Assembly: GCF_026151205.1 (NCBI RefSeq) | Contig: NC_087077.1 | Location: 3,410,001 to 3,474,000, forward strand | Length of the DNA stretch: 64,000 nucleotides | Origin: Bolinopsis microptera | Lineage: Eukaryota > Ctenophora > Tentaculata > Lobata > Bolinopsidae | Direction: 5' to 3' | Part shown: piece by piece, positions 1 to 57,418 of the stretch | Layout of the letters: each line of letters opens with the position of its first letter | Position numbering within the stretch: the first letter of the stretch is position 1 | Program-made: the position numbers and the translations under genes | Notes under the pieces: model-generated | What the model was told of the DNA's origin: nothing | Seen by the model: the letters and a program-made list of their open reading frames with translations, nothing else | Database searches by the model: none

Positions 1-382
1 AATAACATGTGTGGAAACGGTTTTACAGACTAATTTCTAGTACACTTTTACTACGCTGATCTGAGGGTTGTAAACTTTCTCTGTTGTGATTTTTTCTTAT
101 TGGCAACCCGATTTTTCTCGCATGGATGTGTACACCCCTTTTCTATAAATTTTGCTGAAATTTTCTTCCTAATGATAACCCTGATCTTTGTCGCATGTAT
201 GTTTACTTTCCTAACCCTATTACCACACTCTCTGGTTCAGAGATCAAACCTCCCCTTTTCAGTGTAACCTTGATAAAGTCCAATGCGTGACGAAAATTTG
301 GTTTTACAGTTCACTTAGTTCCTTGTTTCACTTTGTTCGCAGTTTTATTTCGGGAGACGTGAAGTCTAAAATGAAAGCTAAA
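1..382 (+). repeat. Left pseudo-LTR of the Penelope-like element (5' cut by window)
   Basis: This stretch matches 3203-3584 at an offset of exactly 3,202 bp. It holds the tail of the upstream ORF copy, a non-coding stretch, and the start region of the internal ORF, including the ATG at 371. Confidence 0.9.
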
Positions 383-3235
383 TTCGTCTCAAACTCACGC
401 TCAGCCTTAAGATCTATTTGCTCGATACCTGCGGCTAGCAGTGTTATAGAGGCTGCCCGAAAACTGTCCACCCTTACCCTCAAGAAGACCAACCTACAAC
501 AGCAGCTAGACTTCCTCAAAACTTGCAGAAAAGAGAAAGTCTTCCCTAAAAACATCTTAACCCTTAAACTCCCTACTCTCCACCAAGCCTTCAAAGCTAA
601 GTTTGATATAGATGGTCAACTGCGCAGCCTACCCCCATCTATCGTCCCCAAATACCTCAAACTTCAAAGCAAGATCGAAAGAATGACGAACACCATACAT
701 TGTTTCTTCCTCAAAGCTGAAATCGATGAAAAATACCTTGAAGTTAAAAGATGTACCCTTGAGATTAACCACACCCTTAAAACGCTACACAGTGTAGCCT
801 CACCTCGAGAGACCAGATACATCAACAGAGTTATAGAACAGCATACCCAAAAAGAAAGGTGTGAGTCACAACAAAAACTGGAAAAGAAGCTCAAAATCAT
901 TAAAACAGCGTGTCAAAAACCAGAAAACAGCAATGTATCGACTACACCCAACCTCCACGAAGATCAAGGAGATAGCAAAGCTAATAACCCAGAAGAATCT
1001 ACCAACAACCCAAATGAGGAAGCCCCTCTGAGCTCTGGAGTTATTGTAACTGTCCCCAGCACATACAGCAACGCAGCTACCAACATCTTAGAAAAAGGAA
1101 GGAATTTCAAGATTTCTCCGGACAATGGGAGAAAACTGGAAACAGATTTCCAGACTGGAGTATGGAGGATGATTGCAGCAATGCGATACAGCAACCCTGC
1201 ATACGAGTTCGGTATTCCCAACCCCGCGAGAAATCCAGACCCAGACCTAAACACTATACTCAGCCTCAAACAGGTTGTATCGAGATTCGATAAGGACCTC
1301 GCACCCCCACCAAAAGCCATACCACCTGTTGAGGAGACTATCAAACAACTTAAGTGCTCCATGGAAGGCCTAAAACACGATCTGAGGAAGATACACATCC
1401 CCAGGAACTACCTTAAAGAAGATCTCGAGAGCCTAACAGAGGCGAAAACGCGGGAAAATGTACGGATTATCCTGACCGACAAAACCAACAATATTGCTAT
1501 CATGGAAAGAGAACTAGTGGAGCAAAAGCTAGCTGACCACCTGCGAGAACCTGCTTACAAACTATTAGAAGAAGATCCCACTAATAAGTACGAAACAGCA
1601 GCAAACAACCTGTTTACCGACATATGCATAGATCTTGGAATAGATGTCACGAAACCCCCCATCAAACACGTTCTAAGCAACTACTCGTCGGCCCCAGAAC
1701 TCTACCCAATGGCTAAGGATCACAAGCCCAGCTTTCCCAACACCAAAGTTCGAGTAGTACAACCTATCAACAACAGTGCTATAGAAAAACTCGACATGGT
1801 AGTGAGCAAAGTACTGATACAAATTAATCAGCTCCTCCCAAACCGAGTCAAAAGTACAAAAGATTTTCTCACTAAGCTCCGCAAAACTTATCCTGACAAC
1901 ATCACCGTAACCAGTAGTGTCAGTTTCCAAGCATCCCTTGATGTGGAGAACATGTACCCTACTCTACCCACTGACGAGAGAGCTTTACAAGTCATACTAT
2001 CGTACATTGAAGATTACAAAGAAAATATTAACCTGTACGGATTTTCGCCCTCACATATTGTCTCCATGCTCGAATTTGTCCTACACCACACTTACATCAA
2101 AGCAGGCGACAAATACTACCTACAAAAACAGGGTATCGGCACTGGGTCCCATAGTTCAGGCGCATACGCAGAAATCATCGTCGACTACACCTACAATATA
2201 GCAGCAGAAAAGAGTACCCACAAGCCGGAGTGCCTTTCCACGTACGTTGACGACGCCTGGTTACTCTGGAAGTCAAGCGCCGAAGACTTCGAGGAATTCA
2301 AAGCCAATCTGAACTCTGTTTGGGCCTATGTAAACTTCACCAGCGAACTTCAAGAAGATAGAAAGCTCATTTTCCTTGATCTCACCATTGAGCTAAAAGA
2401 GAACAATGAAATATCCTTCACTCACTACCAAAAACCTACGGCTTCTGGAAGATATTTGCATTACGACTCACACTGTAGTCTAGTCACCAAAACAAACATC
2501 ATCAGGTCGGAGACTAGGCGGATAGTTCTCAACTGCAAATACAAGGATGACAGCTGGGCATACCTCGAAAAACTGAAAACTCACCTGATCGTAAACTCCG
2601 GATATCCCAAAGAAGTCGTGACAAAACACATGTTACAAGCTCTAGAGAGACTAGAAGTACTAACAAGCTCGACCCCACGAGAACCCCGGCCAGAACCCGA
2701 CCTTATCCTGAAGATACCGTACATTAACGAGAGCTTTACCAGGAGAGTCAACTCATCGATCAAACAACTGGGAATAAACGCCAGAGTAGTGACACAGGCG
2801 GGGAAAGCTGTCAGGAGCATCATCAGCACACCATCTAAAGACGAGATATGCGAGTGCGAACTCTGCAAGGCAGATCTCAACTGTACCACCCGACACTACG
2901 TGTACAAAGCAAAATGTAAGAAATGCGGAGATCTGTACATAGGAGCTTCAAGACGACCTATTAGAGGTCGAATCTACGAACACGAGTCTAGCTTCCGACT
3001 CAACAACAGCAGGACCACACTAGGATACCACGCTGCTGAACACCGCAGAGCAGACGACCCACACTACACTCCCATATCGGGAAAAAGAGACTTAGCAAAA
3101 TTCTTCGAAAACTACGAATTTAGCATATCAGAACAATGTAAGGATACCTTAGATACCTTTATAAGAGAAGGCTTAGCAATAGAACACACTAAACCGAAAA
3201 TCAATAACATGTGTGGAAACGGTTTTACAGACTAA
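371..3235 (+). CDS. Penelope-like element reverse transcriptase / GIY-YIG endonuclease
   Basis: From the first in-frame ATG (371) this gives 954 aa. The frame is open back to 287 without an ATG, so the start is not certain. The first 300 residues are Lys-rich and helical. The RT core follows, with the first catalytic Asp in SLDVENMYPTLP near residue 523 and the catalytic YVDD box at 625-628. The C-terminal GIY-YIG-type nuclease (about 840-940) shows HYVYKAKCKKC, then YIGAS at 856-860, an Arg-rich helix and a downstream YEHE. In this class the RT copies the element RNA, and the nuclease is thought to nick target DNA for priming. No stop or frameshift interrupts the frame, and with near-identical terminal repeats the copy may be competent. 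The function is known for the family; activity here is inferred. Confidence 0.9.
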   Translation: MKAKFVSNSRSALRSICSIPAASSVIEAARKLSTLTLKKTNLQQQLDFLKTCRKEKVFPKNILTLKLPTLHQAFKAKFDIDGQLRSLPPSIVPKYLKLQSKIERMTNTIHCFFLKAEIDEKYLEVKRCTLEINHTLKTLHSVASPRETRYINRVIEQHTQKERCESQQKLEKKLKIIKTACQKPENSNVSTTPNLHEDQGDSKANNPEESTNNPNEEAPLSSGVIVTVPSTYSNAATNILEKGRNFKISPDNGRKLETDFQTGVWRMIAAMRYSNPAYEFGIPNPARNPDPDLNTILSLKQVVSRFDKDLAPPPKAIPPVEETIKQLKCSMEGLKHDLRKIHIPRNYLKEDLESLTEAKTRENVRIILTDKTNNIAIMERELVEQKLADHLREPAYKLLEEDPTNKYETAANNLFTDICIDLGIDVTKPPIKHVLSNYSSAPELYPMAKDHKPSFPNTKVRVVQPINNSAIEKLDMVVSKVLIQINQLLPNRVKSTKDFLTKLRKTYPDNITVTSSVSFQASLDVENMYPTLPTDERALQVILSYIEDYKENINLYGFSPSHIVSMLEFVLHHTYIKAGDKYYLQKQGIGTGSHSSGAYAEIIVDYTYNIAAEKSTHKPECLSTYVDDAWLLWKSSAEDFEEFKANLNSVWAYVNFTSELQEDRKLIFLDLTIELKENNEISFTHYQKPTASGRYLHYDSHCSLVTKTNIIRSETRRIVLNCKYKDDSWAYLEKLKTHLIVNSGYPKEVVTKHMLQALERLEVLTSSTPREPRPEPDLILKIPYINESFTRRVNSSIKQLGINARVVTQAGKAVRSIISTPSKDEICECELCKADLNCTTRHYVYKAKCKKCGDLYIGASRRPIRGRIYEHESSFRLNNSRTTLGYHAAEHRRADDPHYTPISGKRDLAKFFENYEFSISEQCKDTLDTFIREGLAIEHTKPKINNMCGNGFTD

Positions 3236-12768: not shown

Positions 12769-14368
12769 ATGAAACGCTTTAACAACGATGTGGCGCGGTT
12801 TGACGACAAGCGATCCAGGTAGCTAAAATCTACATTTACATTGATAATTATATGAATTATGTCATGATCTTAGTTGTTTGGAGGATTTTGGAGGAGTCAC
12901 AGCTCAAAAAACATCAAATATTCACTATGCTGCAATAAAATCATAGTTTAACCGTCAAACAATTCTTACATCACATTGTTAGTGGAAATGTGTACTGTGC
13001 ACTTCCTTAAACAACTTTTCTTGCTTCAGGAGGGATTCTGGCTATTCGACAGCCTCTGAGAGTGGCGAAGGTGCTCCCCAGTCACCTCAAAACACTGGGG
13101 ATGATAAGGCGAATTTTTTCGATCCTCAGCGAATTTTTTCGATCCTCTGCGGAGGATCGAAAAATAATTTCAAAGATTCGGCTCCACTTCAAATTGAGGT
13201 TCATCGCGACCATGAAGTCAATTCTGAGCTGTTTTCGAGGCCAACAAGTGCGAGCATTCGTCTGAGTGACTCGAGTATGATATCTAATTCGGATATCATG
13301 TTGTCTGCAGGTGCCACCAATAATCTCGAAGAATCGCTTTTCGATAATGGTTTCGAAAACCAACCAATGAATCGTAGCGATGAGTCAGTTGATGATCATA
13401 CCTCATGGTGTATTAGTGACCGATCTGTCACCATGGAATCACATGGACTGAATCAGTCTAGTCGCCCTTTTGCAGCAGTCACCAATACGCTGATTTCAAT
13501 CTCTGATACGGCCTTTATCGATGGGACTATTGATACCGCCTTCATCCCCATTGAATTTCTTGGGATGCCCTCGACTGAAGAAGTTGATTGTCCTTGTACA
13601 TCTTTGGAGACCGTCTGCGTCGGCTCATTTATTTGGGAAACAAACAGAAGCGCGTTTGCGCAAGTTCCCAGGCAGGGAATACAGAGTTGCGAAGAACCAT
13701 CCGACGCCCAATTCAATGAGTCTGCCGTAGTCGCCAATTTGGATATCAAACCACGCTCGCCAATGTCGTGCAAGCTGAATGCTGACAACTTTGAACTTGA
13801 ATTAAGCAAGTTTTTACAGCGTGCTCATGTCACCGAAAAGTTCAAGTTAACATATGAAAAGAGCTCCAAATTGGTGTCGTTAATTGATCTGATGCATAAA
13901 GATTTCGAAGACTTGGTTAACCAGCAAGGAGTGGTTACCCTTACGAAAATCGTTTTCGATACTACGAAAAGCAAAAAGTTTGCCTCTCTCGAAAAGAAGA
14001 AGAAACGGTCATTGGCTTCTTGCCAATCTGTTCCAAGAGGGTTGGCTTTGGCCGAGAAGTTCAACGAGATCCAAAGACTGGGTCTCAACAACAAAACGAA
14101 GAATAATCGTTTCACAAATTATCAAAGAAGGGACAGAAACTCTGGTAAGAAACTGGAGATAGAGTTTCTCGAGAAAAACGGACTATCCAGGTTCGCTTCT
14201 TATTCTGAAATAGAAAGACAGTGTATGATGACGCTGACTATTTTTGATTCAGACGGGTCAATCAAGTATTTGTCTCCTAAGTTTAGCAAGAAGGCTGTTT
14301 TCTTTTATGAAGGAGAGGATGAAATTTATTTTGTAAAAAACCTGAAAGGATTTTGTAGGATAGAATAA
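12769..14368 (+). CDS. Gene A: orphan two-exon protein, 462 aa, tandem family member
   Basis: Exons are 12769-12818 and 13030-14368, joined at CCAG|GTAGCT and TTCAG|G in phase 2. I chose the ATG at 12769 because it gives the same phase and the same position relative to the intron as gene B. The N-terminus reads MKRFNNDVARFDDKRSR, and exon 2 opens with RRDSGYSTASE, a DSG-type phosphodegron-like motif. The middle (30-265) is Ser/Asp/Glu-rich, low in order, and carries SAGATNNLEE. The C-terminal domain (about 269-462) has FKLTYEKSSK, GLALAEKFNEI, KNNRFTNYQRRDRNSG and a FDSDG...YLSPK beta-rich end. No known family is recognised. The acidic disordered N-terminus with a basic C-terminal domain would suit a transcription regulator, which is inference. 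A polyadenylation hexamer overlaps the stop codon. Confidence 0.75.
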
Positions 14369-14369
14369 A
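14364..14369 (+). terminator. AATAAA overlapping the stop codon of gene A
   Basis: AATAAA at 14364-14369 contains the TAA stop (14366-14368). If used as the cleavage signal, the 3' UTR would be only 15-30 nt long. Confidence 0.4.
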
Positions 14370-14757
14370 TTTATTTTGCATCAATCTGGTGATAAAAGTA
14401 TATATCTTTATATTAGAATTAGTATTCGCTCTTTTGAGTGAGATCATTTAATAGATGTTTTGGGACAAAGTGAGAGTCTCCTCTCAGTTTTTCAAACAAG
14501 TAGTTGTCGACAAAACATCAATTAGAATTAGTATTAATTATTAATAGTATCTTGTTCAGTTAGTTAAAACTGTAACTTTGAAAAATATTTGCAAATCTTT
14601 TAGTAAAATTGATATGTCCTCAATGTATAGTTTACAACCAATGACCATGGAAAAATATTCCCAAATTCAAGAATTGAAACATTTGATTATACTGAGATCA
14701 TCTTTTTATTAGGCAGTCTTAATGATTTAAATTAACAATTCAAACCACATTAGCACA

Positions 14758-17700
14758 ATGGCACATAAGCGGGAACTGTCAGTCTATGACTTTACGGAGG
14801 ATCCGGATATGGATGGAAACTTTATCAAGCGGTTGAGGTAAATTTATTTGCATTCTCTTGGACTAGTTATTTTACTAGGTTGCTGTTTGGTGTGAGCAAT
14901 AGCACGCTCACCCCTTCTAAGTTAAGGGGGGGGGGGTTCATCCTGATTTTTTTTGTGAAACTTGGTTTCGAGATAGCACAGTGGCCGCCAAATTTTTTTA
15001 AAGGCCTAACTCAAAATTCTGTCCAAAAACTTAAGGTCATGAGACAATTCTACGTTGATTCTGAAAATTTCATGTGAAAATACCCTATTGAGTTCTATTG
15101 TTTTGAGCGAAGTCAGTTTTGCTAATATCGCGAACTGAGATATTGGCGATTTTTGGGCATGTTCAGGGTATTTGGCTAAATTGGGCCTAATTTGGACCAA
15201 ATATAGGCGTGGCTGCCCCGCAGGCACCGTTTGGGGTCAGGGACCCCCCTGTAGAGCATAATATGAGGATAACTCAATCCAACATTTTTCAACTGGGATC
15301 TGGCAATGCACGTCGCCTGCGCACTCTATATGCTGTTATCTGATATACCTTATAATTATCTGTCCTCATTTGTATACTGTCTAATACAACTAAATATAGA
15401 CGACCATGCAGTTGAGCCGATAACCGGCTCTCCAATCACATAAACATAGCACGGTAATTATATGGTTGCTAGAAGGCAAACATTGATACAATGAGATAAC
15501 GACCTTCTAATGGTTCTTCCAGAGTCTATGGACTAGAAGTATACATTATACAAGGGTATATAAGAAAAGTGAGCACTGAGCAGTGAGCAGCAATTTTCAA
15601 GTTAATGACTTCAGCTTGTTAATTATTGCGTGACGTCAAGAATTGTGTGCATTTTACCCAATCTGCGGCTCCACCCAGCCAGCTAGGCTCTCAAGTTTCA
15701 AGATAACGATGCATACATGGTGCAGGAAAATAGACTATCACAGATTTTTTTAAAAGTTAAAATTATTGGATCTGAGATATCAAACCGTGCTCTTATTTGT
15801 GCTAAATTTCGGAGTACTCATTTTTGTCTTCTGCTAAATTCTGCAATTTTACAAAAAAAGTATAGATGGTGTGAATCATGCATGAATCCCTGCAATGAAA
15901 CAAGATAAGGGGGGGGGGGGCTGACCATATTTAAGCATATTAAAGTATATTCCGCCCTCAAATCGGGAAAAGACCTACATTTTAATATACTTTAATACAT
16001 AGGTGCAGATTTCGTTTTGAGGTGAACTTTTAAGTTCCAGAGAAATTTTCTTAAGTTTGCTTTTTTTTTCCTCCTCGGGCACATTCGTAACCTACGGGCC
16101 AGGAGTGACCCTCGACAGCAAGCTCAATTTCAATGAACATATCACCAATACCACCAAAAAAGCTACGGCATCCCTTATGCAATGTAGAAGAGCTGTCGGC
16201 CCCACTTGGGGTATGAGCCCTAAAACATGCAAATGGATGTACACCGCTGTCATCAGACCTATTCTATCATACTGCTGTAGTATATGGATTAGGGCAACCC
16301 AAACAGACACCAACGCGAGGAAGTTCAAACGAGTTCAGGCATTGGCATTGAGAATGATGTCTGGTGCCATGCCTAGTACTCCCTTCATCGCACTGAACCA
16401 CCTCACTAACACTCCAGATATCATACTTTTCCTGAGAGGTGAAGCAGCAAAGGGCACAGCCAGGCTTCAAGCATATGGAAGCCTAACCCTCGAAACTATC
16501 GCCCCCAGAAAAGGTACCATCACAACTCACACCACTATCAACAAACAATTCATGGTAGACCTCAACATACCACCCAAAGCAGAGAGAGACCTATCTATAC
16601 CAACCATGATGCTTGAACGAAGCTTCACGGTCACCACTCCTGGAGCTGACAACATTGAATATAGAGGCTCACTCCAAAACACCATCGACAACATCCCCAG
16701 TGAAACCATCACCTGCTACACAGACGGGTCACGCACAGACTCAGGTAGCGGGGCTGGTTATATTATCACCACAGACAACAACAACACTACACTAGATGAA
16801 AGATCATTCAAGCTTCCTGATTATTGCACCGTTTATCAAACAGAACTCACTGCCATCATCGAAGCTTGTAAATATCTATCAACTTACACAAACACACATA
16901 TCATCATATGGTCAGACAGTCTCTCCTCTATTCAAGCTATATCCTCACCTTCAACGAGGAGTAGAACTACTAGAGACTGCTACGACACCCTCAATACACT
17001 CGGATCCACTAACACCTTAGAGATCAGATGGATAGCAGCACACACCGGATTGTGGGGTAATGAAAAAGCAGACGAGCTGGCCAAAAATGGCACAACCAGT
17101 GAATCCACTTTGAATTGCCCAATTCCACAATCTTACATCAAACGCCTGATCAACGACAAAGTCACAAAACTTAATCAAGAATCATGGATTACTAATGGTC
17201 CCAGACACACTAAACTGACACTTGGACATAAAAACATCAACATCATCAAAAATGTCAACACCACACTCAGTAACAACAGACAAAATTACAGAACTGCAGT
17301 GCACCTCATCACGGAACATTGTGGCCTCAACAAACACCTACACACCATTCACAAATCAGACACAAGTGCTTGTCCTAAATGCGGCGACGGAGAGGAGACT
17401 GTCTCACACTTTCTCGGACAGTGCCCAGCTATTGCCCAAATAAGAGGTCAACATTTCCGGGACTACTACCTCTCTGTCAATGACATATTCGACAACCAAC
17501 ACATCTCCACCATTGTCAACTTTACAAACCACACTAAACGCTTAGTGGTGCCGGAGAAGTTGGACCAGACAGGTGTAACATAGCGACTACTTTAACGCCG
17601 TATTGTTTCGCCCCTCTCTTCCACACTCAACCACCACTTAAGCGTTTATCTATGACACACCCCACAACACTTACCATCATCCTTGATTACACACCTTGAT

Positions 17701-19115
17701 TCCACTGGCATCCTCCCACAGGACAGCCATATCCCAGAGGTAGGCAAAGCATCCATATGCTATCCTCTCGTGGGCCAACCAGGCCCAGCCTCTCTTAAAA
17801 AAATAAAAATTTAAAAAAAACCTACGGGCCAGGTAAACCTAAACTACATATTATATTGACCGTTATGTACGTCGGTATCTGTTGAGGAGCCAAATCATCT
17901 GAAAAGCCCTAAACCTATATTTTGCTCAGGCACGTAGCCAGGATTTTTCTTTGGGGGGGGGGGCTGTCGGCGAGCGAAGCTGCAAGCTGTGGCAGGGGTC
18001 TGGGGGCGCGGCCCCCAGCGGGGTCCAGGTAAGGGGCGGACCACATTGGCGGGGGCTAGGGGGGCGCAGCCCCCCGGAAAATTTTTGCGAAATAGGGTGT
18101 TTTAGGCTAAATTGAAAGTTTAATGAATTTACAAAAATGTATGGTTTGGCATAATCATTGCCTACAATCCTGACCTGAGTAATTTACCCCTTTGAGACTT
18201 TATTTTGGTTGAAAATTGAGTTTATCGAGAGGAAGTGAAAAATCTCTGGTTCAATTTTGGATTTGAAGCCATGTTTAATTTTTTCTGTTGAGGTCAATTT
18301 TTTGCACAGAAAGCGTTCGATTTTAGGGGGAAAATTTATGTTTGCTTTTAATTTTTATGTTGCCGACGGCACCTGAAATCGACGAAATCTGCAGGGGTGC
18401 TTTAAGGGGGCCGGGGGGGTCTTCATCAAAATTCTCTCGAAATTGATTTTATAGTTGTTTCTGATAGAGGGGAGTGATATCTATCAGCTGCTTTTGGTCC
18501 CATGGAAAAATATTGTTCCTAGCAAAAATTATCGCCAGTCAAAGGTCAGCGCTTATGTGTAATTGTATTGCGCGAGCGATTTTCAATCACGCGCCCTGAA
18601 AATCGAGTCTACAAATCTATCTTCTCCTACATTTTTTGAGCAATCACCCTGAAACTTTCAGGATATGTTCTATGGATCATTTAGAAGATATCTGTCTAGC
18701 CGAATTTTGAGATAGGCCTTAGAAGATTTTTTATTCAATTTTGAAAATCTTGGACCTCATTTTTTTACGATTTTTCCAGGTCCAAGATTTTCAAAATTGA
18801 ATAAAAAATCTTCTAAGGCCTATCTCAAAATTCGGCTCGACAGATATCTTCTAAATGATCCCTAGAACATATCCTGAAAGTTTCAGGGTGATTGCTCAAA
18901 AAATGTAGGAGAAGATAGATTTTTAGACTCGATTTTCAGGGCGCGCGATTGAAAATCGCTCGCGCAATACAATTACACATGAGCGCTGACATTTGACTGG
19001 CGATAATTTTGGCTAGGAACAATATTTTTCCATGGGACCAAAAGCAGCTGATAGATATCACTCCCCTCTATCAGAAACAACTATAAAATCAATTTCGAGA
19101 GAATTTTGATGAAGA

Positions 19116-19146
<31 letters not shown>

Positions 19147-19584
19147 CCCCCTTAATATACTTTAGCTTTAATATACCCAAAATTAGTCGAGCTATATGTT
19201 TCGTTTAGATTTGCAAGATAAGCCTGTTTTTGGACTAGTACATGAATTTACATCCAGTTTGGTCAAAAAATGACTGAGTTATGAGCTTAAAACCATATTA
19301 TGCCCATATAGCTTTTTCCCAAAATTCGATCAAATTTCGATATTTTTGAGAGACTAACTTTATGTTGAGAGACTAACTTTATGTGAAAGATATAGCTCAA
19401 TATCTGTTGAACAGTGGATACCTAAGTAAAATTAAAAAGACCTCCATGAGCAAAATCGCACATATTATCTCGGTCCGGGTTACTAGCCAAAATGAGATTG
19501 AAATTGAAATAACTCCTTCAGTTTTCAATATTTTTGCATGAAATTTTCGGAATCGATTAAGAATTGCATATTTCAAGCTTTGCA

Positions 19585-19615
<31 letters not shown>

Positions 19616-21411
19616 CAAATTTATCATTTATGGCCAAATCATGTTTATATGGCCAAATCATGTTTAAATTATTTAAATTCATGAATTTGTCTAATTCGAT
19701 TCAACCAACTTAAATTTGTTACTACCTCAGGCAAGACTCTGGATATCAGTCAACTTCAGACAGCTCACCTCGGGCTTCAGACGAAGAAAGAGAATTTGAT
19801 GATCAACTGAGTCCTCTGGGATATCATTTCGAGGAAAATGTCTTGATTTGCTTTGACCCAGGGTCCAAACCCGGTTCTACCTATCTGCAGGCTCCACCAA
19901 TGAAACAAACTATCTTTCCTGACACGACCAACGCTCTACTGGGCAACACTTTTGGGCAAAGATCAGATGCCAACGATGTAGTCATAAAGGAATCACAGAA
20001 TATTGGATATGATTATTCATTGCCTTCTTCTTTTGACAGCATGGATGTAAGTTTATATGATCCAACTGATGCTGATGCTTTCTTCAATCTTTCTGATGCA
20101 AGTATGTATGAACTGTCAAAAATGGACGATGAAACCGTATCTGCTGTAGCTCCGTCCGAAGCTCGGTTGGTTAATCCCTTAGAGCAAGGGTCAGATGTCC
20201 CTGTTGATGACGTGGAGAATTTTCAGAATTTCGGGCCTCACTCATCAACATCTTCAACTGAAAACACGGATGAAATTTTCTGTGCTACAACCAGTGCTGA
20301 TGCTTTCTTGAGTCCATACGATTCAAGAAAGTCTGAACTGCCAGATATGGATTGTCATTCCATCTTATCTGCAGGAACCACCAATCTAAAGGAAACACTT
20401 CAAGAACTACTTAGTTGTATCAATGAGAAAGAGGACAAAGATATAGACACGAGAAGTTCACAAACGTTTGATGAATATATCCCAATTCACAAGGACAATA
20501 CACAGGAAAATGGAGGTGAAGAGTGCGATGCGGTAAATACCAATTCCACAGGAGCTACCAATTCAGTTTTTTCCAATTATGGCAGTATTCATGATCCTGT
20601 GATGGATAATTCAAAGGGTTTATTCGGTCATTTTAAAGTGGAACGTGAACAGATGCCTGTGGCTTCCAGAGTCCTATCTTCAAAGTCGGACATAATGATG
20701 ACTGATCCCAAGTATGGAGATGCTTCCTTTACTCAACGTGAAATGGAAGTAAAGCCAATGACTGCTGGAACTACCAATTTGGATCATCATGAGATTTCGA
20801 CTGCTTGCTCTTTGGATTCCAAAAACATGGAAACTGAGCTCAGCAAGTTTCTTCTGGGCACAAATGTCCATCAAAAGTTCAAGCTAATGTACGATGAGAG
20901 CATACGTAAAACAGTGTCTCTTAAAGACTTGAACTATAAAGACATGGCACAGTTAGTCTCCCGTCACAAATCTATTAGCATCCAAAAACTTCCCCTGAAA
21001 ATCGAACTGAAGGAACGATTTGCATCAATTAAAAAGGAGAAGAAAACGTCTCTTCTGTTGTGCAAATCAGTCACACATGGACTTGCGCTCTCTGAAAAAT
21101 GGGATGAGATCCAACAGACCCCTGGGATTGACAAGAAAAAGAAGAACAACAGATTCTCTAACTTTCAGAGAAGTGATAGAAATGCAGGATCCAACTTGGA
21201 GAATGAATTTCTCGTAAAGTATGAGCTTGACAAATTTAGTATGTACACAGACATGGAAAGAAAGTGTTCCTTATCCTTGGCTGTATTTGATTCAGACGGC
21301 GATCTTACGTATCTGTCACCCAAATACTGTGAAAAAATTGTTAATTTCTATGAGGAAGATGACAAGATTTTTCTTATTAAGAACTTCAGCGGTTTTTGTA
21401 GAATTGCTTGA
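14758..21411 (+). CDS. Gene B: orphan two-exon protein, 586 aa, tandem family member
   Basis: Exons are 14758-14837 and 19731-21411, phase 2, joined across a 4.9-kb intron filled with transposons. The N-terminus reads MAHKRELSVYDFTEDPDMDG, and the junction gives RLRQDSGYQSTSDSSPRAS, an excellent DSGxxS degron consensus. Residues 65-390 are acidic and Ser-rich, with four short motifs around TTN/ATN (PDTTNALL, SAGTTNLKE, STGATNS, TAGTTNL) and a possible sumoylation site (FKVE). The C-terminal domain (393-586) aligns with gene A along its length: FKLMYDES, GLALSEKWDEI, KNNRFSNFQRSDRNAG, FDSDGDLTYLSPK and terminal GFCRIA. A candidate polyadenylation signal is at 21765. The family is not recognised. 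It begins 390 bp after the stop of gene A. Confidence 0.8.
14838..15908. other. 5' part of gene B intron, no gene
   Basis: Contains a G run near 14928-14936 and a short C-rich segment near 15240, likely MITE ends. I see no coding potential. Confidence 0.4.
16104..17820 (+). mobile_element. 5'-truncated non-LTR retrotransposon (LINE) with 13-bp target duplication
   Basis: CCTACGGGCCAGG stands immediately before the element (16091-16103) and immediately after its A-rich tail (17821-17833). This marks a target-primed insertion. The body starts inside the RT C-terminal part and runs through RNase H, a CCHC knuckle, a 3' UTR (GTAGGCAAAGCATC, GTGGGCCAACCAGGCCCAGC) and an A-rich end. A decayed relative lies at 46437-47545. 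Confidence 0.9.
16105..17583 (+). CDS. LINE ORF2 C-terminal fragment: RT end, RNase H, zinc knuckle
   Basis: The open frame begins upstream in host flank, but the element's coding part starts at VTLDSKLNFNEHI, the end of the RT domain. RNase H follows with all expected catalytic acids visible: YTDGSRTDSG, the Glu in QTELTAIIEA, the Asp in WSDS, and the final Asp in HTGLWGNEKADELAK. A C-terminal CCHC motif (CPKCGDGEETVSHFLGQC) precedes the stop. This order is typical of LINEs of the I/R1/Jockey group that keep RNase H. The fragment lacks the endonuclease and the RT active site, so it cannot move by itself, though its remaining frame is undamaged. It sits in the intron of gene B on the same strand. 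Confidence 0.88.
   Translation: MTLDSKLNFNEHITNTTKKATASLMQCRRAVGPTWGMSPKTCKWMYTAVIRPILSYCCSIWIRATQTDTNARKFKRVQALALRMMSGAMPSTPFIALNHLTNTPDIILFLRGEAAKGTARLQAYGSLTLETIAPRKGTITTHTTINKQFMVDLNIPPKAERDLSIPTMMLERSFTVTTPGADNIEYRGSLQNTIDNIPSETITCYTDGSRTDSGSGAGYIITTDNNNTTLDERSFKLPDYCTVYQTELTAIIEACKYLSTYTNTHIIIWSDSLSSIQAISSPSTRSRTTRDCYDTLNTLGSTNTLEIRWIAAHTGLWGNEKADELAKNGTTSESTLNCPIPQSYIKRLINDKVTKLNQESWITNGPRHTKLTLGHKNINIIKNVNTTLSNNRQNYRTAVHLITEHCGLNKHLHTIHKSDTSACPKCGDGEETVSHFLGQCPAIAQIRGQHFRDYYLSVNDIFDNQHISTIVNFTNHTKRLVVPEKLDQTGVT
17930..18401. mobile_element. G/C-run-rich MITE remnant
   Basis: Starts near GGCACGTAGCCAGGATTTTT, followed by a G run and GGGGGCGCGGCCCCCAGCGG / GGGGGGCGCAGCCCCCC palindromes. 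It resembles non-autonomous elements of aquatic invertebrates. No clear right terminus, and non-coding. Confidence 0.45.
18402..19155. repeat. Large palindrome: 356-bp arms, 20-bp loop
   Basis: The left arm 18402-18757 (TTAAGGGGGCCGGGG ... CTTGGACCT) is repeated inverted at 18778-19155 (AGGTCCAAG ... CCCCGGCCCCCTTAA). Only scattered mismatches and a longer C run in the right arm separate them. The loop is 18758-18777 (T-rich). Transcribed, it would fold into a hairpin of more than 300 bp inside the gene B intron. No coding content. Confidence 0.92.
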
Positions 21412-22111
21412 AAATTACTGATTGGAATTTTTGTTGTAGCTTTAGCAGTTCCAGTGAGTTATTCTGTATGATGTGAATATTTTCTTTTTTAAAAGATAAG
21501 AGATGTTATTTTGTGCAGAAGTTTCTTTAACGATATGGTCTATAGAGTCGTGTTTACGACGTTTTCTGTTTGATCACCATTTAAAACGTTCCTTGATCGT
21601 AAGCATAATTATTAGAATTTTTCTTATGTATTTTTAGCATGTGCTTGACTAACAGATGGTTTTCAAAGTGATGAATTACATTAGTAGAATTGTTTGTAAT
21701 CAGATTCTTCGAAATTGACAAATCTGTTAGTGGTTCTTTTCATAAAAATCACGTCATAAAAACTAATAAATTAAATTTACCATTATTGAAAATCAATTTA
21801 GATTCTTTGCTTAATTGCTACCCCAATTGATCAAATTGTTTGTCTAAAAATTTTGTAGACTCATTTTATTCATCCAATTGATAATTTATTACTATGACGA
21901 ACATGTGACCAAAACTGGTCCACTGTTGCACGAGGCTGGCCCAATCTATAAAGCAGAGCTTATTTTGGAATAATAATGGGCTAAATTTAATGCAAAACGG
22001 TTTCTAAAATTTGGAAATTGATCCAACCTCAAGCAACATTCTCCCTCCTTGCCTCGGTTACATGTTCGTCACGTTTATAAGCTCTTATTTAATTTTTAAA
22101 ACTTTTAGGCT
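21412..22111. other. Intergenic DNA between genes B and C
   Basis: AT-rich. It probably contains the 3' UTR of B (AATAAA at 21765-21770) and the promoter of C. A possible 3' splice site TTTTAG lies just before the ATG of C, so a 5' UTR intron is possible. Confidence 0.45.
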
Positions 22112-23732
22112 ATGGCCACAATGGTAGGGTTAAACGGGGGATCAGTAGCAGTGGAAAGCCTGCAGTGGAAAGGCTTTCCAAACTTTGGACTGATCCCTGA
22201 CGGGTTGGACCAATGGTGTAAAACGGGGTAAGTTTTTGCATGTGGACTTCCTATTTTCCTAATGACCCCAGATCACTTATCAATTTCATAACATGCATTG
22301 GGCGCTCAGCTGCATTTTGCCAAATGTCAGGCCCTAATTCTTGCATTTTTGGCAGATAAATGCAGCCGACTAGACCATGATAAATTACCATCAGAATCAC
22401 TGATTAGATTTAATTTTGTTGTTTTATCTGGATAACATGAAGAGTATAAGATTAAGAGTAGTATAATTCGCTCATTTTCCTCCTTTGAAATCTCACCAAC
22501 AGAGACGTGCACTGCGCGATTCGCAGCGAAATGTCGACCCAGACTGCGATCTTTGACCAGTTTTGGCGTCCGGACTGTCGCCGCTTAAAAGTAACATGGT
22601 GTTCACATCTCTGCTCGCCAAACCTTTGCCATTATCTTTCGACGACTCTCATCCTAGACCTGGCAAACTGAGCTAGCCCTAGGATTTGAAGCATTGAAAG
22701 ATAAAAGCAGTGGCCAAATGCTGCTGGGCTTTTGATCAACATGTTTCTGGTTTTTTAAAGGTGATACATAGTATCAGTTTCCCTTCATTCATTCATTCAC
22801 ATCATCTCCATTTCAGGGCAGGGTTACCTGAACTCCGTTTAGACGCTGTCTACAACACCATTCAAGATTGTGAGAAACAGGAACCGTTTGATGACACCAA
22901 CAGAAACGGTGTGATTGAGTCAGAAGATAAGGTGACCAATGAAAGAGAAAATTGCGTGAACATCAAACAGGAGAAGGTGGACGTAAAATGCGGCAGCCTT
23001 AAAGGTCGTACCGTCTTCGATTCTTCAGAAGGAGCCACCAATTTAACCCCTTTGCATAAATCCGGTGATTTTGAAAAGGATCTACACACTTTCAAGCAAG
23101 GAGTTCACTGCTCGCAAGAAGTCATCGTATATTTCTTGAATAAAGAAAACTACAATCAAAGGCACGATTGTGTAACAGTGGTTGAAATCAACCGAAAGTT
23201 AATAGATGCCCTGTTCGATCATACTCCTGTCATAAGTTTACAGAAGAAACCTATCAAGAAAAACATTCTAGAATTTTTTCTGAAGGAAAACGTTGTGACT
23301 AAACGATGCCTTGTCCGCTGCACAAGTTTCATACACGGACTCGCACTCGCAGCAAAATGGGAGAGTTTAACCGAGGGACTGGAGTCCAAGAGGGCCAATA
23401 ATGTCTTCAGTAACTATCAACGTCCAGATAGGGTCGCTGGTAAAAATCTAGCTCTTGAATACCAGTGTCAGTATGGTCTTTCAAAGGGTTCTGGATTTGG
23501 AGATATAGAAACGAAAGCAAAGGTAAGCTTCGAAATATATGACAAGCAAGGGTTTCTGTCTTATGCATCCGACAAGATGATGCTCAAGCACACGATATTT
23601 TACAATTGTGGAGAGGAAATTTACTTCGTTAAGGAAAAGTATCTTAACGCTTTTGGCAAGATAGTCATACCAAAGAAAAAGAAAGCTGAACTGAAAAGAC
23701 TTCAGAAAGTTGAAAATGCAGGCAATCTTTAA
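22112..23732 (+). CDS. Gene C: orphan two-exon protein, 343 aa, divergent tandem family member
   Basis: Exons are 22112-22227 and 22817-23732, phase 2 (ACGGG|GTAAGT ... TTTCAG|G), matching A and B. The N-terminus (MATMVGLNGGSVAVESLQW) is unlike theirs and lacks the DSG motif. A sumoylation-like IKQE near residue 89 and the family motif SEGATNL follow. The C-terminal domain (about 122-325) is recognisable by GLALAAKWESL, NNVFSNYQRPDRVAGKNLALEY, YGLSKG and GEEIYFVKE. It ends in an added basic tail (PKKKKAELKRLQK) that could be a nuclear localisation signal. Loss of most of the acidic middle makes it the shortest member. Function unknown. Confidence 0.7.
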
Positions 23733-25025: not shown

Positions 25026-26266
25026 ATGCAGCTGAAGGACGAAGATGATGACTTACCCGCTTTTGACATTGGAATGACATCGAAGGACTCAACTGGTGTG
25101 GTAAGATTACCTTCATTGGCTATATTAAAATGAATTGATGAATTTCACTTTTAAAGAAGTCATTTTGCCCTAATTTTTCTCACTCTCTCCTTTTTCAGGT
25201 CACCGTATTGGACTACGACTCTGATGGGATTGACATCATTCCTGAAGACGATGTTGAATCTTTGGTGAAAGATGCCAAACTTGCTAACAAACAATCTAGT
25301 AATTTGTTCACTAATCTGAGTAACAAAGGATTTGAACCTGTGATAAAATCTAACCAATCCTCTCCTAGACGGGACACTGAGTCACCTTCCACTGTTGTAC
25401 TAAGTCGATGTACCACCCCTGATTTGAACTCAGATATTTGTGGATCTTTTGCAAATACATCAGACACAGCCACATCAGTTTTAGCAGAATCGGCGGTCGT
25501 TGCAAAACCAGACGTGACAATATCAGACATTTCAACATCAGTTATATCAACGTTAGACGTAGCAACACCAGTTGCTGCAGTTTTAGCGACATCAGTTGTT
25601 GCTCCCTCAATCATAGAAGCATCAACTATTGCTGATATCGTGACTGTAACCTCGGTGGTTTCGGCACCTACTATCCCTGTAACCACAATTGTAACATCGT
25701 CCACCTCCTCTGGTCATGATTCCAGCAATAATTCAGAAATTTTGGTCAATACTCTTGTTAACGATAATCAGATAGTATTGGCCAAAAAGATAAGCATCCT
25801 GGACCTCAAAGTTGAAGACATTGAAAATATTAAGGATAAGGAGGCAAGGGATTGGATTGTTTACGGCATCCATGGAATGAAAACTTTGCTGAAAGTTGCA
25901 GATCATTTGAATGAACATAAAATAAAATTTGATATTAAACAGTATGTGTCTCAAGAATTCCCCCCTAATCTCCAGTATTTTGACCCACTGAACACAAAAA
26001 ACCTTGTCGATGCATTGGCAGGCGATCTTATCAATGATAAGCTCAAGCAACTACATGAGCAGTACAGACCCCTTTTGAGTCAGAGAGGGAAAAGGACAAA
26101 GCAATATGACTATTTGATCCCTCACAAGGCGGCAGCGTTGAGGAATACTCTTCTAGCTGTATCTGTTGACAAGAGAAATATAAATGTTTCCTCTCTGAAG
26201 AGTTCTCATATTAGTAAACTTATATCAGACGGATCTCCTGCTTGCAAATCAGTTCGACGAGATAAG
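25026..26266 (+). other. Large gene, exons 1-2: acidic N-terminus and helical segment (residues 1-381)
   Basis: The start MQLKDEDDDLPAFDIG is acidic. Across the first junction come two hydrophobic-plus-acidic stretches, VTVLDYDSD (26-34) and IDIIPEDD (36-43), which fit the SUMO-interacting-motif pattern. A Thr/Val/Ser-rich linker follows. A probably folded segment (about 220-370) has ILDLKVEDIENIKDKEARDW, HGMKTLLKVADHLNEH, a PNLQYFDPLN stretch and KQYDYLIPHKAAALRNTLL. No family recognised. Confidence 0.7.
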
Positions 26267-29200
26267 GTAAATACTTTATTTTATAAACTTATACTCTTTT
26301 TCTGTTAGTTTATAAAAAACGTTAGCCAACATAGCCTTACATTTTGTAAGCTCCCTTATCGGCACCTTCTTAGCTTAATTTTAGCATTGTGTGTCACATT
26401 CTACCTATGATTAATAATCATTGATTATAGCTCATTAAATATTATACCTTACGAGACATGTTTATGTTCGACATAAGTCCGGTGACCTAAATGCAAATTC
26501 CGAAAACTGCCACATTTCGTATAGTACCCCAAATTAAATCATGGTATTTGGGGATTTTTTCATCTTATTTTATTAAAATTAAACCCAATATTTGAGAAAA
26601 TTAAATACAAAGATCTTCTCTGATCAGCTCTTTCATCTTGTATAAACAATTTCCAATTTCTCCGGAGCCTTTGAAATTTAGCCTCAACTTAACTAATAAT
26701 AATCCTCTAGAGAGTATAGGAGACTGACAGTGTCTGTTATCTTCCACTACTCCCGAAATGTTTGCAGTTTTCCAGACATTGATTGGGGTGTCTACTGTCT
26801 AGTGGTTAACTTTATGTCTAGTGGTAAACTTATGTCTAGTAGTCTAAGTTTTATATCTAAGTTTTAGGGAAGTTTTTGGCTAATAATGATTAATGATACG
26901 TCAGCAGACGAGTGGGTTAAGAAATGTCAAATGCTTGTGAAAGTGGATTCTTGGAAACCAATTTTTCCACGGTTCATGCTACGGGCTACCCTGATCATTA
27001 TGAGCCGGAAATATTTTTCGGTTTTTCGAAGTCTGCACCTACCCCTCGATACACGATTTTGGACTCGAGGCTTCCCCCTTGTAATGCAATCTCGGAAGGC
27101 AGGCTTAACCCCTTTTCAATCGGAAGCGGGAGCTCTGCCTTCGAAGTACCTATCGAGAATGACTGGGACCGAACATTTTTTAAGTCTAAAGTTTTTCAAA
27201 GTTTTTCTGGAAACTACTTTTGTTCATGTTTCTTGCTACCCTGATCATTATGAGCTGAAAATATTTTTCGGTCTTCTGAAGTCCGTACCTACATTCGGAA
27301 GGCTGTGGATGTGATTGGTTCCATATACTTATAACTTTATAAAGAACGTGATATTTGGTCTTCGGATATAAAGGAGAATGTGCAAATTTGGTCCTCAGAT
27401 TTAAAGAAAAATGCACAATTTGTCACGGAGAATTGAAAAAATCGCGATTCCGCAGGTGCTGCGATTTTCTTTTGACCTCGTGGCCAATAAAGTAGTGACA
27501 GAGCTCGCCTATTTTTAATGGAACGTGTCCAAAATCATTTTTAAAGCAATTCATAATAGAATACTAGTGTTCATTAATTAATTGATGAATCAGAGAAAAA
27601 TCAACAATAACCACCAACTTTCTTACCATTTAAATATGTCTCGTAAGGTATGAAAACATGAAACGTAACAAAAATCACAATCGTAAACGTAACAAAAATC
27701 ACAATAATATTTTAAAAGAATCCTTGAAATAATAATAAAAACGGAGAGAAATAAACATTGATAAGTAAAACCAAACTAAAAGTAAATACTGCTGATTCAA
27801 AATTACAAAAATTACTCGACAAAGATTCCATCTGGATTAATGGCAGTGCAATTGCATAGGTTGAGATCTATTTTCAGTATGTGTTTATTCACATGTCTTA
27901 TTTCCTGATTGCTTAACTCTTTAGTACTCCATTCATCATTGGATTCAACTTTATACAATACCAATCTCCTATTCGGTGCCAAAGAATAATAAGGAATGTT
28001 TCCGTAATGAGATGTTGCTTCTTACATAGCTATAGTTACATGGCGACATATATATTATAACTATATTATATATACTATGGCGGCATCATAGCTTCTGTTA
28101 TGTGATCAGGCCTTATTTGGAATAATTAACCAATGTATGAGTAATGGGCAATTGTCTCTTACCTTAGCACTTAGTTTATTGTTCTATTTCTTTGTTTCTG
28201 TTAATAGATAACCTTGTACGATATTAACATTCTCCATGGTTTAGAGGCGAAGAAATTCATCATCGGCGGAAGAATTGCATTTAAAAAAGAGAGTTGATCA
28301 ACGCTCATCGCTTAGCAGAGGTATATTTTTAGTAAGCTTGGTATCTCAGACACATCAGTTAATGGTTCCTTCTCTGATTGAAATTAGAATTGTGCAATTT
28401 CTGAAGTTGAATCGTGATCAAGATTTTTGGATGGCTTGACATCGAGATATAAAATAGTGTATCTATTGTGTAATAATGACAATATGATGGAAACGTCGTC
28501 AAAAGCTTTTCAGTGCATTTAACACTTAACCTCACCATCGATTCACTTTCCTTATTTCAGATATTGTATTTGCTCACCCATCTTCATCTTTCACCGAATT
28601 GAAAGCTCCTAGCTGCGAAGAAATTCAGAAGAATATCCAAAAGATTAGCAAATACTTAAATCCATCCATGACATTTGAATCTAGTGAACCAAACCTAACA
28701 AAATCGAGTCAACTTGTTAGTAATAAGAATCCGTCTATGCTTTGTACTAACATCAAAGTAATGGGAGATAAACCTCGCAAGACCAGAGTGCAGAGTCAGA
28801 ATTCGGCATTCAATGTGACAACTCCTAAATGCAAGCTCATTCAACCAAAACCTATACCAATTTCACATCATCCCATTACAGATTTCTGGAGTCCATTGGT
28901 TCCAGCATCGCATAGTAAATCAGTCGCGCAATTTCCTTTTCAACATGTTTTCCAATATCAACAGCAATTTGCTCGAAAAAAAGCTCGTGTTGCTGATTTA
29001 CTGCTCCCTCAGTTACTATATTCCGCAAACTCTCCTACACAACGATTTGACGTCATATCTGATACCTCGGTGGAAGGTAAAATGCAACAAGATATTGCAC
29101 AAAATCTCTACAAAATCTCTACAACTAGTAAGGCAGTTAAAAGCCAAAGCCTGAAAGTGAGTTCTAAGTTGCGTTCTGATCTAAGACGCTTTATGGCTAC

Positions 29201-54469: not shown

Positions 54470-57418
54470 TGATTGTAATTGATCATGATGGAGCAAAATC
54501 AAGGACGACATGGTGGACTAGGTTTCATCATAAGTCCTAGATTACTACCTTATGTCACAGACTATCAGTATACCTCAGACCGGGTTTCCTATCTTAATGT
54601 CGTCATTCCTTCTAATCTCTCATCCCATCCTAAAAATATCAGAATTGTTAACGGTTATGGCCCGACTAATCCTAAAGCAGAAGGAAACCCTGCCCTTCTT
54701 AGAAAGTTCTACAGAGAACTCACCCATGCTATTTCAGTTCCTGCATCTCATGAATTGTTTGTTTGTGGTGATCTCAACAGTAAGTTGGGAACCTTATCTC
54801 CTTTGGACTATCAGTATGGTGTAACAAAGTATATGGGCAAGTTTGGAATGGGTACAAGGAATTTCAACGGTGAACATTTATTAAACTTCATGTGCTTAAA
54901 CAAACTGTTTGCTACCAATACCTATTTTGATCATCCTTGTAGACATCGAACTACTTTCTCTATGTGTATTTCTGCCAAAGGTCGCCCTAAAGGTAGCAAA
55001 CTTACTCGTCCAGTCTTTGCCCAATTAGATTATATTCTGTGCAGAACACGCAGCAGATTCATGTTCCAAGATTGTAGAGCATATGGCGGTCTTGCTACTA
55101 ACTCAGACCACAGACTCGTTGCTTGTAAGATCAAACTAGCCCCCTACTACAAAATCTTTCCTACAAAAAAGATAAGTTCAGTAGTTAAGAGATATAACAA
55201 CTCCCTGCTCACCACTGACCTTCCCACCAAAGTCAAATACCAACTTTCAGTCGAACAGAAAGTCAACAACTCTCAGGTAACATCAAACCCTAATGATGAT
55301 CTCACTAACCTGATGGATGTCCTTAAGACAACTGCTGATGAAGTAATCGGGACACTACCACGCTCCAGAAACCGTAACTTCAGTAGTGACTCAACTGTTG
55401 AAGCCCTTGTAAAAGAGAGACAAACCCTGCAAGCTGCACTTAACTGTAACAACCAAGTTGCTGACAGAACTCAAGTCCGTACAAGGATCAACAGGTTACA
55501 GAAAGACATCCGTAAGCATCTCAAGAACCTTGCTGACACACGTGCCGATGACATCGCTCGAACCATCATGTCAACAGATGACACAAGGCAGATGTTTGAA
55601 GCTGTGCGTACTCTAGCTGACACTAAGCCCAACTCTACTATCAGTGTCCACAATGAAGAAGGTAACTTTGTTGCCATAGATGCTGGTAAAGCTCAAGTGA
55701 TCAGAGACTACTACGAAAAGCAGTTCACGTGTGAGGATGAACCACTTCAAGCATTTATAGGGGATGGACGCTGCCTAGACATACCCATCACATGTGATGA
55801 AGTAAAGAAAGCCGCCCAATCTCTCAAGAACAACAAAGCCACTGGTCCAGATAAAGTCTACAACGAGTGGTTGAAAAATGCTGGTACAAAATTCTGGTCA
55901 AAATATGCCGAGATCATCAATAGCGCATTGGAGACCAATTCATTTCCTGATGTTATAGGTGAAGCCATCATCATCCCCTTACCGAAACCTCGCAAACCAG
56001 CTGGTCCTGTCACTAGTCTACGACCTCTATGTCTATCAAATGGTGCTCGTAAGATATTATCCATGATTGTACCGAAGAGAATTGAAGACAAAGTTGATGC
56101 TTTCACTGGTAGCACGCAGGCAGGGTACAAACATGGTAGAAGTTGTGGTGATCTAGTGTGGGCTGAGCGGATGTTGATATCGGTTGTCACGCGTAAACAC
56201 TTCCAGTATCACAAGATGGGCATAGATATGTCTCGAGCATTTGACACAATCAAACGCCAGACTATACTTGACCTTCTTGTCAAAGCTGGATGCACAGACG
56301 ACGACCTCAGGCTAGTAAGACTCCTCTTAACCAACACCATGCTCAAGGTCAGAGTGGAAGGAGAACTATCTGCTGTATTCGAGAGTCTTCTTGGGTCCTT
56401 TCAAGGTGACAGTCTCTCCGGCAAGCTTTTCACTCTTGTCCTAGCAGGAGCTCTTATAGAACTACGCCATCGACTAGCAGAGTCTCCCCCACACATACCC
56501 AATCCCCCTATTTCAAAAGAAGGTATGCCACTGGAGTCAGCGTATTCAGATGATTGTAACTTCATGAACGTGGAAAAAGAATCCTTAGAAGCTATCCTAC
56601 CAATAGCTAAGGAAGTCTTCAAGGAGTTTAACCTGTTCATTAACACAGAGAAAACAGAATTTACCCATGTTTTCCTCGCTCCTGTTGGAGAAACAATCCC
56701 TGGTCGTGATGATACCATGTTACGTGGAAATGAAGATTGGCGGAAGAGTAAGATTCTTGGGTCATTGTTGTGTAGTGAAAGTGATATAGCTGCTCGATGC
56801 ATTGCTGGGAACAATGCCTTCTATAAGTTCACCAAGATCTGGTCTCAGCAGAATATCTCCGTTACCAGAAAGATAGCAGTATACGAAGCCCAAATTGTAT
56901 CAATCATCATGTACAATTGCAGTAGTTGGTGTCCTACTGCAAAGTCACTAGAAAAACTAGACATTTGCCATAGAAAACACCTTAGATCATTACTGAACAT
57001 TTATTGGCCTCATGGAACAATATCCAATGCAAACTTATACCTAAGATGTAACTCAGTTAAGCTATCAGATCGTGTCCCTAAAGCAAGGTGGAAGCTCCTA
57101 GGTCATATCTTGCGTAGTGCTGATGACTCCCCCGCTGCATTAGCGTTAAAGTTTGCTGTCACAACAAACTGTAAAGGGCGCGTCGGTGCGCATCGTAAGA
57201 ATTTGTTCAAGATTATTGTGAATGATTTGACCCGTAGAGGTTTAAAACTTAACTCTTTGAATGATCTTAATAAGCTTAAGATATTAGCCGATGATAGAGT
57301 TGCTTGGAGAAACAATTTTAACTCTAGCTGTCTTAATCTGTACTGATCACCATTTTAGGATGACTTGATTTCTTTTAGGGGTTTTGAATATTTTAATGGT
57401 GTAAACAGTTTCTTAATA
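54470..57418 (+). mobile_element. Second 5'-truncated LINE with 11-bp target duplication
   Basis: ATACGTTGTAT occurs at 54459-54469 directly before, and at 57419-57429 directly after, the element. Removing it leaves continuous host sequence around one target copy. The 5' end falls inside the endonuclease domain and the 3' end is TTTCTTAATA with no long A tail. Confidence 0.88.
54479..57346 (+). CDS. LINE ORF: truncated apurinic-type endonuclease plus reverse transcriptase, 955 codons
   Basis: The frame is open and uninterrupted; the first ATG is at 54485. Endonuclease landmarks are VNGYGPTN, FVCGDLNSKLG and TNSDHRL near residue 215, but the first 50-60 residues with the QET motif are missing. 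The RT spans about 440-720: KNNKATGPDKVYNEWL, GIDMSRAFDTI with the first catalytic Asp, LLGSFQGDSLSGKLF, and the catalytic box YSDD near 689-692 (YADD in most LINEs). A C-terminal thumb and Lys/Arg-rich tail follow. No RNase H is present, so this is a different family from the LINE at 16104. The protein is unlikely to be expressed from its own promoter, because the 5' end is lost. Confidence 0.88.
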   Translation: MIMMEQNQGRHGGLGFIISPRLLPYVTDYQYTSDRVSYLNVVIPSNLSSHPKNIRIVNGYGPTNPKAEGNPALLRKFYRELTHAISVPASHELFVCGDLNSKLGTLSPLDYQYGVTKYMGKFGMGTRNFNGEHLLNFMCLNKLFATNTYFDHPCRHRTTFSMCISAKGRPKGSKLTRPVFAQLDYILCRTRSRFMFQDCRAYGGLATNSDHRLVACKIKLAPYYKIFPTKKISSVVKRYNNSLLTTDLPTKVKYQLSVEQKVNNSQVTSNPNDDLTNLMDVLKTTADEVIGTLPRSRNRNFSSDSTVEALVKERQTLQAALNCNNQVADRTQVRTRINRLQKDIRKHLKNLADTRADDIARTIMSTDDTRQMFEAVRTLADTKPNSTISVHNEEGNFVAIDAGKAQVIRDYYEKQFTCEDEPLQAFIGDGRCLDIPITCDEVKKAAQSLKNNKATGPDKVYNEWLKNAGTKFWSKYAEIINSALETNSFPDVIGEAIIIPLPKPRKPAGPVTSLRPLCLSNGARKILSMIVPKRIEDKVDAFTGSTQAGYKHGRSCGDLVWAERMLISVVTRKHFQYHKMGIDMSRAFDTIKRQTILDLLVKAGCTDDDLRLVRLLLTNTMLKVRVEGELSAVFESLLGSFQGDSLSGKLFTLVLAGALIELRHRLAESPPHIPNPPISKEGMPLESAYSDDCNFMNVEKESLEAILPIAKEVFKEFNLFINTEKTEFTHVFLAPVGETIPGRDDTMLRGNEDWRKSKILGSLLCSESDIAARCIAGNNAFYKFTKIWSQQNISVTRKIAVYEAQIVSIIMYNCSSWCPTAKSLEKLDICHRKHLRSLLNIYWPHGTISNANLYLRCNSVKLSDRVPKARWKLLGHILRSADDSPAALALKFAVTTNCKGRVGAHRKNLFKIIVNDLTRRGLKLNSLNDLNKLKILADDRVAWRNNFNSSCLNLY

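Follow-up and report, generated by a model that had tools for sequence, protein, structure and literature searches.

What kind of protein is made by tandem genes that have no recognizable relatives in sequence? The question is raised by a 64,000-nucleotide stretch of the genome of the ctenophore Bolinopsis microptera (contig C6:3410001-3474000 of the 264.65-Mb assembly; hereafter the window), in which three genes, A, B and C, share a C-terminal domain of approximately 195 residues. Structural modelling points to an OTU-type domain that is probably catalytically dead and probably related to a domain of Polinton DNA polymerases. The genes and their elements, in window positions, are as follows.

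12769..12818, + strand: gene A exon 1 (MKRFNNDVARFDDKRS..., basic, resembling a nuclear localization signal by eye); open frame from ATG to GT donor, phase 2
13030..14368, + strand: gene A exon 2; AG acceptor, open frame up to the stop
13034..13051, + strand: DSGYST, phosphodegron-like motif of A, from sequence
13784..14365, + strand: putative pseudo-OTU domain of A, from the family alignment and the fold of the family
14758..14837, + strand: gene B exon 1 (MAHKREL...NFIKRL); open frame, phase-2 donor
19731..21411, + strand: gene B exon 2; open frame up to the stop
19735..19752, + strand: DSGYQS, phosphodegron-like motif of B, from sequence
20818..21408, + strand: putative pseudo-OTU domain of B, the sequence used for the model; from alignment, model and structural matches
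22112..22227, + strand: candidate exon 1 of gene C; the sole phase-2 candidate donor in the scanned stretch
22817..23732, + strand: gene C exon 2; AG acceptor, open frame up to the stop
23034..23729, + strand: putative pseudo-OTU domain of C plus a short tail, from the family alignment

A larger gene family that includes A, B and C

The gene positions of A, B and C agree with the original prediction, which was made from this sequence alone. In A and B, a short basic first exon is followed by a phase-2 intron (approximately 4.9 kb in B), and the proteins, of 462 and 586 residues, respectively, stop directly after the domain. The second exon of C has the same phase-2 acceptor, and its frame continues approximately 20 residues beyond the domain. 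The candidate first exon of C contains two alternative ATGs and bears no likeness to the first exons of A, B or their paralogues; the exon-intron structure proposed for all three genes is thus established for A and B and merely plausible for C. The shared C-terminal domain was confirmed in all three (50% identity between A and B, 38% between C and B), and its core motif is present but looser than first described (A: FTNYQRRDRNSG; C: YDKQGFLSYASDK).

The family is not confined to three genes, as had been supposed. A search of the same genome with the B domain returned seven strong matches, including B itself (E-value 2.6e-19 or better), all in open frames on contig C6: P1a and P1b at 0.24 Mb, P2a and P2b at 3.33-3.34 Mb, and A, B and C at 3.42-3.43 Mb. 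An eighth gene, D, lies on contig C1 (E = 2.4e-6); its divergent domain is interrupted by two introns, as judged from the splice sites, and it has a long tail. P1 and P2 are copies of one duplicated block, in which stretches of DNA are 75-97% identical. In a midpoint-rooted tree of the eight genes, C separates from the six remaining C6 copies with moderate support (83/98), and D forms a long branch. A, B and C are members of a ctenophore gene family with seven copies on one chromosome and the divergent D on another.

Pfam scans gave no match for A, B and C, which were scanned alongside seven other window frames, and no relative for the seven domain members; PDB sequence searches with the B domain and with the seven-row family profile also returned no relative. 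Viral and prokaryote contigs scanned with the family profile (one peptide pattern each) yielded pattern matches, none of which was confirmed. The possibility that the family is itself mobile was rejected, because 7/7 copies sit on a single contig and P1 and P2 are block duplicates. Frames with a common WMAK..IYILK.ALLLHQIPLHWMKK stretch (L003:2805-3311 and L005:2700-3382) lie downstream of P1a and P2a and were copied along with them.

The shared domain is predicted to adopt an OTU-type fold

An AlphaFold2 model of the domain was built from the seven-row family alignment (pLDDT 88.9, pTM 0.85). Among the best 50 of 144 Foldseek matches in the PDB, ranks 1-28 are all OTU enzymes or entries titled deubiquitinase or ubiquitin protease, and rank 29 is not. 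VIA-align, which merely re-ranks the candidates supplied by Foldseek, gave OTU-type chains in all 50 rows listed, with a best Z score of 5.8 over 129 residues. Cellular OTUs are among the matches, including OTUB1, which gives the best Z, OTULIN and OTUD5. The resemblance to the papain-like OTU fold is remote, but exclusive among the matches listed, and the assignment of an OTU-type fold on the basis of the model is fairly secure. An extra N-terminal lobe is present relative to cellular OTU deubiquitinases. The original prediction of an orphan domain therefore holds for sequence and not for fold; the match to a known domain that was to overturn it was found in part, being OTU-only, remote and apparently without catalytic residues.

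Among the predicted viral structures of BFVD, ranks 1, 2, 4, 5 and 6 are bird parvovirus or densovirus proteins, three of which are named DNA polymerase, and the best match has an E-value of 1.3e-4 with probability 1.00. Rank 3 is a negev-like polyprotein. The bird entries presumably stem from the bird-cloaca virome study PMC9896142, the available part of which describes new bidnaviruses whose PolB is close to that of Polintons.

The catalytic site is probably lost

In the family model, the active-site helix (85-99) begins two residues past a strand (79-82). In a model of the OTU-like domain of PolB, the Polinton-type DNA polymerase encoded in the same genome, a D-x-x-C loop sits between the active-site strand and helix. 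The catalytic register was taken from sequence and secondary structure, without an inspected superposition. At the position equated with the catalytic Cys, the residues in B, A, C, P1a, P2a, P1b and P2b are S, S, S, S, S, N and D, respectively; at the one equated with the catalytic His, where the last strand begins, they are K, E, E, D, D, E and E. Active OTU deubiquitinases are characterized by this His and by a Cys that opens the active-site helix. Both are replaced in 7/7 copies in this register, so that the domain should be a pseudo-OTU. Loss of catalysis is probable, judged by sequence and model.

A probable link to the OTU-like domain of Polinton polymerases

The genome contains 20 matches to PF03175, and the OTU-like PolB region occurs in 15 copies at at least 56% identity, 14 of which lie in frames of 1138-1261 residues. 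D-x-x-C and H-Y are invariant in nine aligned PolB pieces. Other PolB pieces of the genome (L035, L036 and L042) carry Ser at the Cys position, so Cys loss alone is no sign of domestication. According to the available text of PMC11071308, pPolBs carry a vOTU domain, whose Cys and His polintons retain and adenovirids and bidnavirids have replaced; an OTU-like domain is also named in adintovirus PolB in the available text of PMC11071296.

The PolB domain model matched OTU-type chains in 50/50 listed PDB rows (best Z 7.6), and both models show a strand, the active-site helix, helices, four strands and a short last helix. Local hhalign joins the C-terminal third of the family domain to the PolB OTU-like domain (for example, P1b EFFLIKNLKGFCRI with L026 HYLLIKNLNAFMRH) over 57 columns with 32% identity at an E-value of 0.0063; other PolB alignments gave 0.052, 0.08 and 0.085, each value being that of a single comparison. 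Every comparison improves when D is added (E = 0.0016, 0.01 and 0.018). The observed score was reached by 0/294 column shuffles, or 0/228 with D, for each of two PolB alignments, and the reversed-alignment control gave an E-value of 0.32. The pairing falls in the matching structural register, and a last LIKN-x-x-x-F-x-R stretch and the final helix are common to the family and PolB. pPolB ancestry of the family domain is, on balance of sequence and model evidence, likelier than not. No family-B polymerase domain follows the pseudo-OTU in A, B or C in the Pfam scan.

A family-profile search with a hidden Markov model (HMM) of 1,078 frames from genome loci, plus reversed copies, recovered all seven members, as well as two D exons. 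Matches to L009 (E = 0.19) and to the following gene, at 25142-26308 (E = 0.52), were judged to be due to chance. Viral contigs scanned with the PolB domain gave peptide-pattern matches, with none confirmed. Polinton PolB copies also occur in three inverted pairs, 5-8 kb apart and near-identical within each pair:

C9:665521(-) and C9:670504(+)
C7:6693670(-) and C7:6701888(+)
C9:6597723(-) and C9:6605018(+)

The N-terminal parts are acidic and change rapidly

The main-exon stretch before the domain is acidic (net charge -4 to -43) and the domain is basic (+3 to +12) in 7/7 genes. The predicted acidity of the N-terminal halves thus stands; their predicted disorder does not, the charge-hydropathy index falling on both sides of the boundary. 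The first exons begin with MKR in A, MAHKR in B, MSQKRKR, MSPKRKR and MALKRKR in paralogues, and MAKKRK in P2b. In five of the seven genes, [RQ]DSGYx[S/T] stands at the start of the next exon, with T in the last place in A. DSGxxS is the pattern of beta-TrCP-type degrons, whose substrates include IkappaB and beta-catenin, and these five genes conform to it by pattern. The genome encodes a beta-TrCP D domain.

Substitutions between P1a and P2a differ in distribution: 12 nonsynonymous and 16 synonymous in the domain, 27 and 5 before it (Fisher p = 0.001). The ratio of nonsynonymous to synonymous rates (dN/dS, NG86) is 0.17 for the domain and 1.33 before it, the latter falling short of showing positive selection; YN00 gives 0.28 for the domain. 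The ratio is saturated in other pairs, and the sole other finite value is 0.37 before the domain of P1b and P2b, at a dS of 1.68. In the P1a/P2a pair, the domain is constrained and the N-terminal part is not. Together with the C6 copies and the block duplicates, these substitutions bear out the earlier suggestion that the genes expanded in tandem and that their N-terminal halves change fast.

Repeats of [GAVTE][AVT]TN, such as SAGATN, SAGTTN and TAGTTN, occur before the domain (window 13031-13783 and 19732-20838, the same region in C, and paralogues). Eight were observed against 0.2 expected, with at most three in 2,000 shuffles; the pattern was picked after the sequences had been seen, and the copies are partly homologous.

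Interpretation and alternative explanations

The explanation that we favour, tentatively and with somewhat less than even confidence, is a nuclear, inducibly degraded pseudo-deubiquitinase family whose pseudo-OTU is most like the pPolB vOTU ('D2') of Polintons and bidnaviruses and was probably domesticated from such an element. The family would most likely function as short-lived nuclear proteins in which the OTU domain binds instead of cutting. The basic N-terminus would direct nuclear entry, and phosphorylation at DSGYx[S/T] would lead to removal by SCF-beta-TrCP, as for other DSGxxS substrates. The OTU domain would serve in binding, its candidate partners being ubiquitin, a ubiquitinated protein, a host regulator, and a polymerase complex or the Polinton polymerase, and the fast-changing acidic half would set the partner or the timing. 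A non-catalytic OTU role is exemplified by OTUB1, which inhibits E2 enzymes (PMC10919355, available text).

Several results weigh against this explanation. The fold match has a Z below 8, a Foldseek E-value of at best 0.04 and low TM-scores. A Cys lies two residues ahead of the supposed nucleophile position in 5/7 copies, so that the dead-site register could be wrong; the loss of His holds whatever the Cys register. The filter used to choose paralogue first exons required a basic pair, which accounts for part of their basic character, and the degron is absent near the start in two of the seven genes, C having no motif and P2b having DSGINT elsewhere. On the polymerase side, the PolB domain model is weak (pLDDT 64.5), and global-mode hhalign gave an E-value of 0.26 in a different register. 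The family-profile HMM search of the 1,078 frames reached PolB only at E-values of at least 2 in the wrong register, and in the opposite direction the PolB profile found P1b at 4.5, within noise. The best BFVD matches of the PolB model are adintovirus and MELD-virus proteins, and of the five densovirus entries a single one recurs in its list, at rank 48; several other BFVD entries are common to both lists.

Two other readings concern the origin and the fold of the domain. Derivation of the pseudo-OTU from a cellular OTU gene, instead of a Polinton polymerase, would fit the presence of OTUB1, OTULIN and OTUD5 among the PDB matches and the failure of the HMM searches to see PolB. However, hhalign with a cellular OTU of the same genome (OTUD6-like, one sequence) gave an E-value of 0.77 over 8 columns, against 0.0016-0.085 with PolB, and PolB has the LIKN stretch and last helix in common with the family; we regard this origin as unlikely. 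That the domain is a new fold merely resembling OTU is decidedly improbable. The low Z and TM-scores and the absence of a significant sequence match to OTU in the Pfam and PDB searches speak for it, but Foldseek ranks 1-28 and the 50 VIA-align rows listed contain no other fold, and in the profile alignment with the OTU-like domain the structural registers agree.

Two further readings concern the role. A host restriction factor against Polintons, in which a captured dead vOTU acts as a decoy competing with the polymerase module and an arms race accounts for the rapid change and the tandem copies, is rather unlikely. Long Polinton-type PolB frames are numerous and the N-terminal part evolves faster than the domain, as such a conflict would have it, yet the pPolB link that it needs is itself no more than probable and the N-terminal change falls short of showing positive selection. 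A lineage-specific transcription regulator, with an acidic activation half, a basic DNA-binding domain and an OTU likeness uninformative on role, would suit the charges of the two parts and the first exons, which resemble nuclear localization signals. We consider it improbable: DNA-binding folds are absent among the matches listed, and we know of no OTU domains that bind DNA.

The favoured pseudo-deubiquitinase explanation has a bolder form, in which ctenophores captured the vOTU of a Polinton-type DNA polymerase, which lost its protease site and gave rise to expanding, inducibly degraded nuclear inhibitors restraining Polinton replication. This form is distinctly unlikely; if true, an animal defence would have been made from part of the Polinton's own polymerase. 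Should the favoured explanation itself hold, a host gene family would have been built out of the pPolB vOTU module, and a ubiquitin-pathway pseudoenzyme under phosphodegron control would be tied to mobile-element biology on a very early animal branch. Eight genes are named here as candidates. No such domestication was found in the literature searched, including the available parts of PMC11071308, PMC11071296, PMC4061559, PMC6431247 and PMC9896142; its absence from print is unproven.

Other features of the window and genome

The B intron contains a retrotransposon frame with RNase H that is not a family member:

16021..17583, + strand: retrotransposon frame (Pfam RNase_H, 2.5e-16)

An inverted repeat was seen by eye in the same intron (window 18400-19140), where approximately 18420-18770 recurs as the reverse complement at approximately 18780-19120. 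Two long window frames, 215-3235 (1006 residues) and 54479-57346 (955 residues), appear retroelement-like by eye only.

Elsewhere in the genome, 59 matches to aequorin were obtained at E <=0.1; 53 of them are near full length, covering at least 154 probe residues within a single open frame, and many form tandem arrays. In the PDB, the best of these matches is closest to berovin (2e-103) and mnemiopsin (6e-102), far above obelin (1e-19), as expected of a ctenophore. Three arrays in this large photoprotein expansion, with repeat units of approximately 940-1000 bases, hold 15, 11 and 8 copies; the loci of the expansion include:

C5:17012730-17026401
C13:11082451-11094340
C1:21999412-22006929
C3, as clusters

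Comparison with known systems

The family domain shares with the pPolB vOTU (D2) of Polintons, adintoviruses and bidnavirids (available text of PMC11071308 and PMC11071296) an OTU-like fold, the succession of C-terminal elements and an end made of a strand and a short helix bearing LIKN..F.R, and its best viral structural matches point the same way. In contrast to the vOTU, it is free-standing and C-terminal in host genes, A, B and C have no terminal-protein or polymerase domain, and the D-x-x-C and H of the nine aligned PolB pieces are not retained. With OTUB1, OTULIN, OTUD5 and the OTU-fold protein FAM105A, it shares an overall OTU-like fold over approximately 100-130 residues, whereas sequence similarity to cellular OTUs is undetectable, the catalytic positions are replaced in the register used, and the N-terminal lobe is additional. 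SCF-beta-TrCP substrates such as IkappaB and beta-catenin have no domain in common with the family, in which the degron is putative and neither C nor P2b carries it at the usual place; like these substrates, five of the seven genes present a DSGxxS-type motif, DSGYx[S/T], near the N-terminus.

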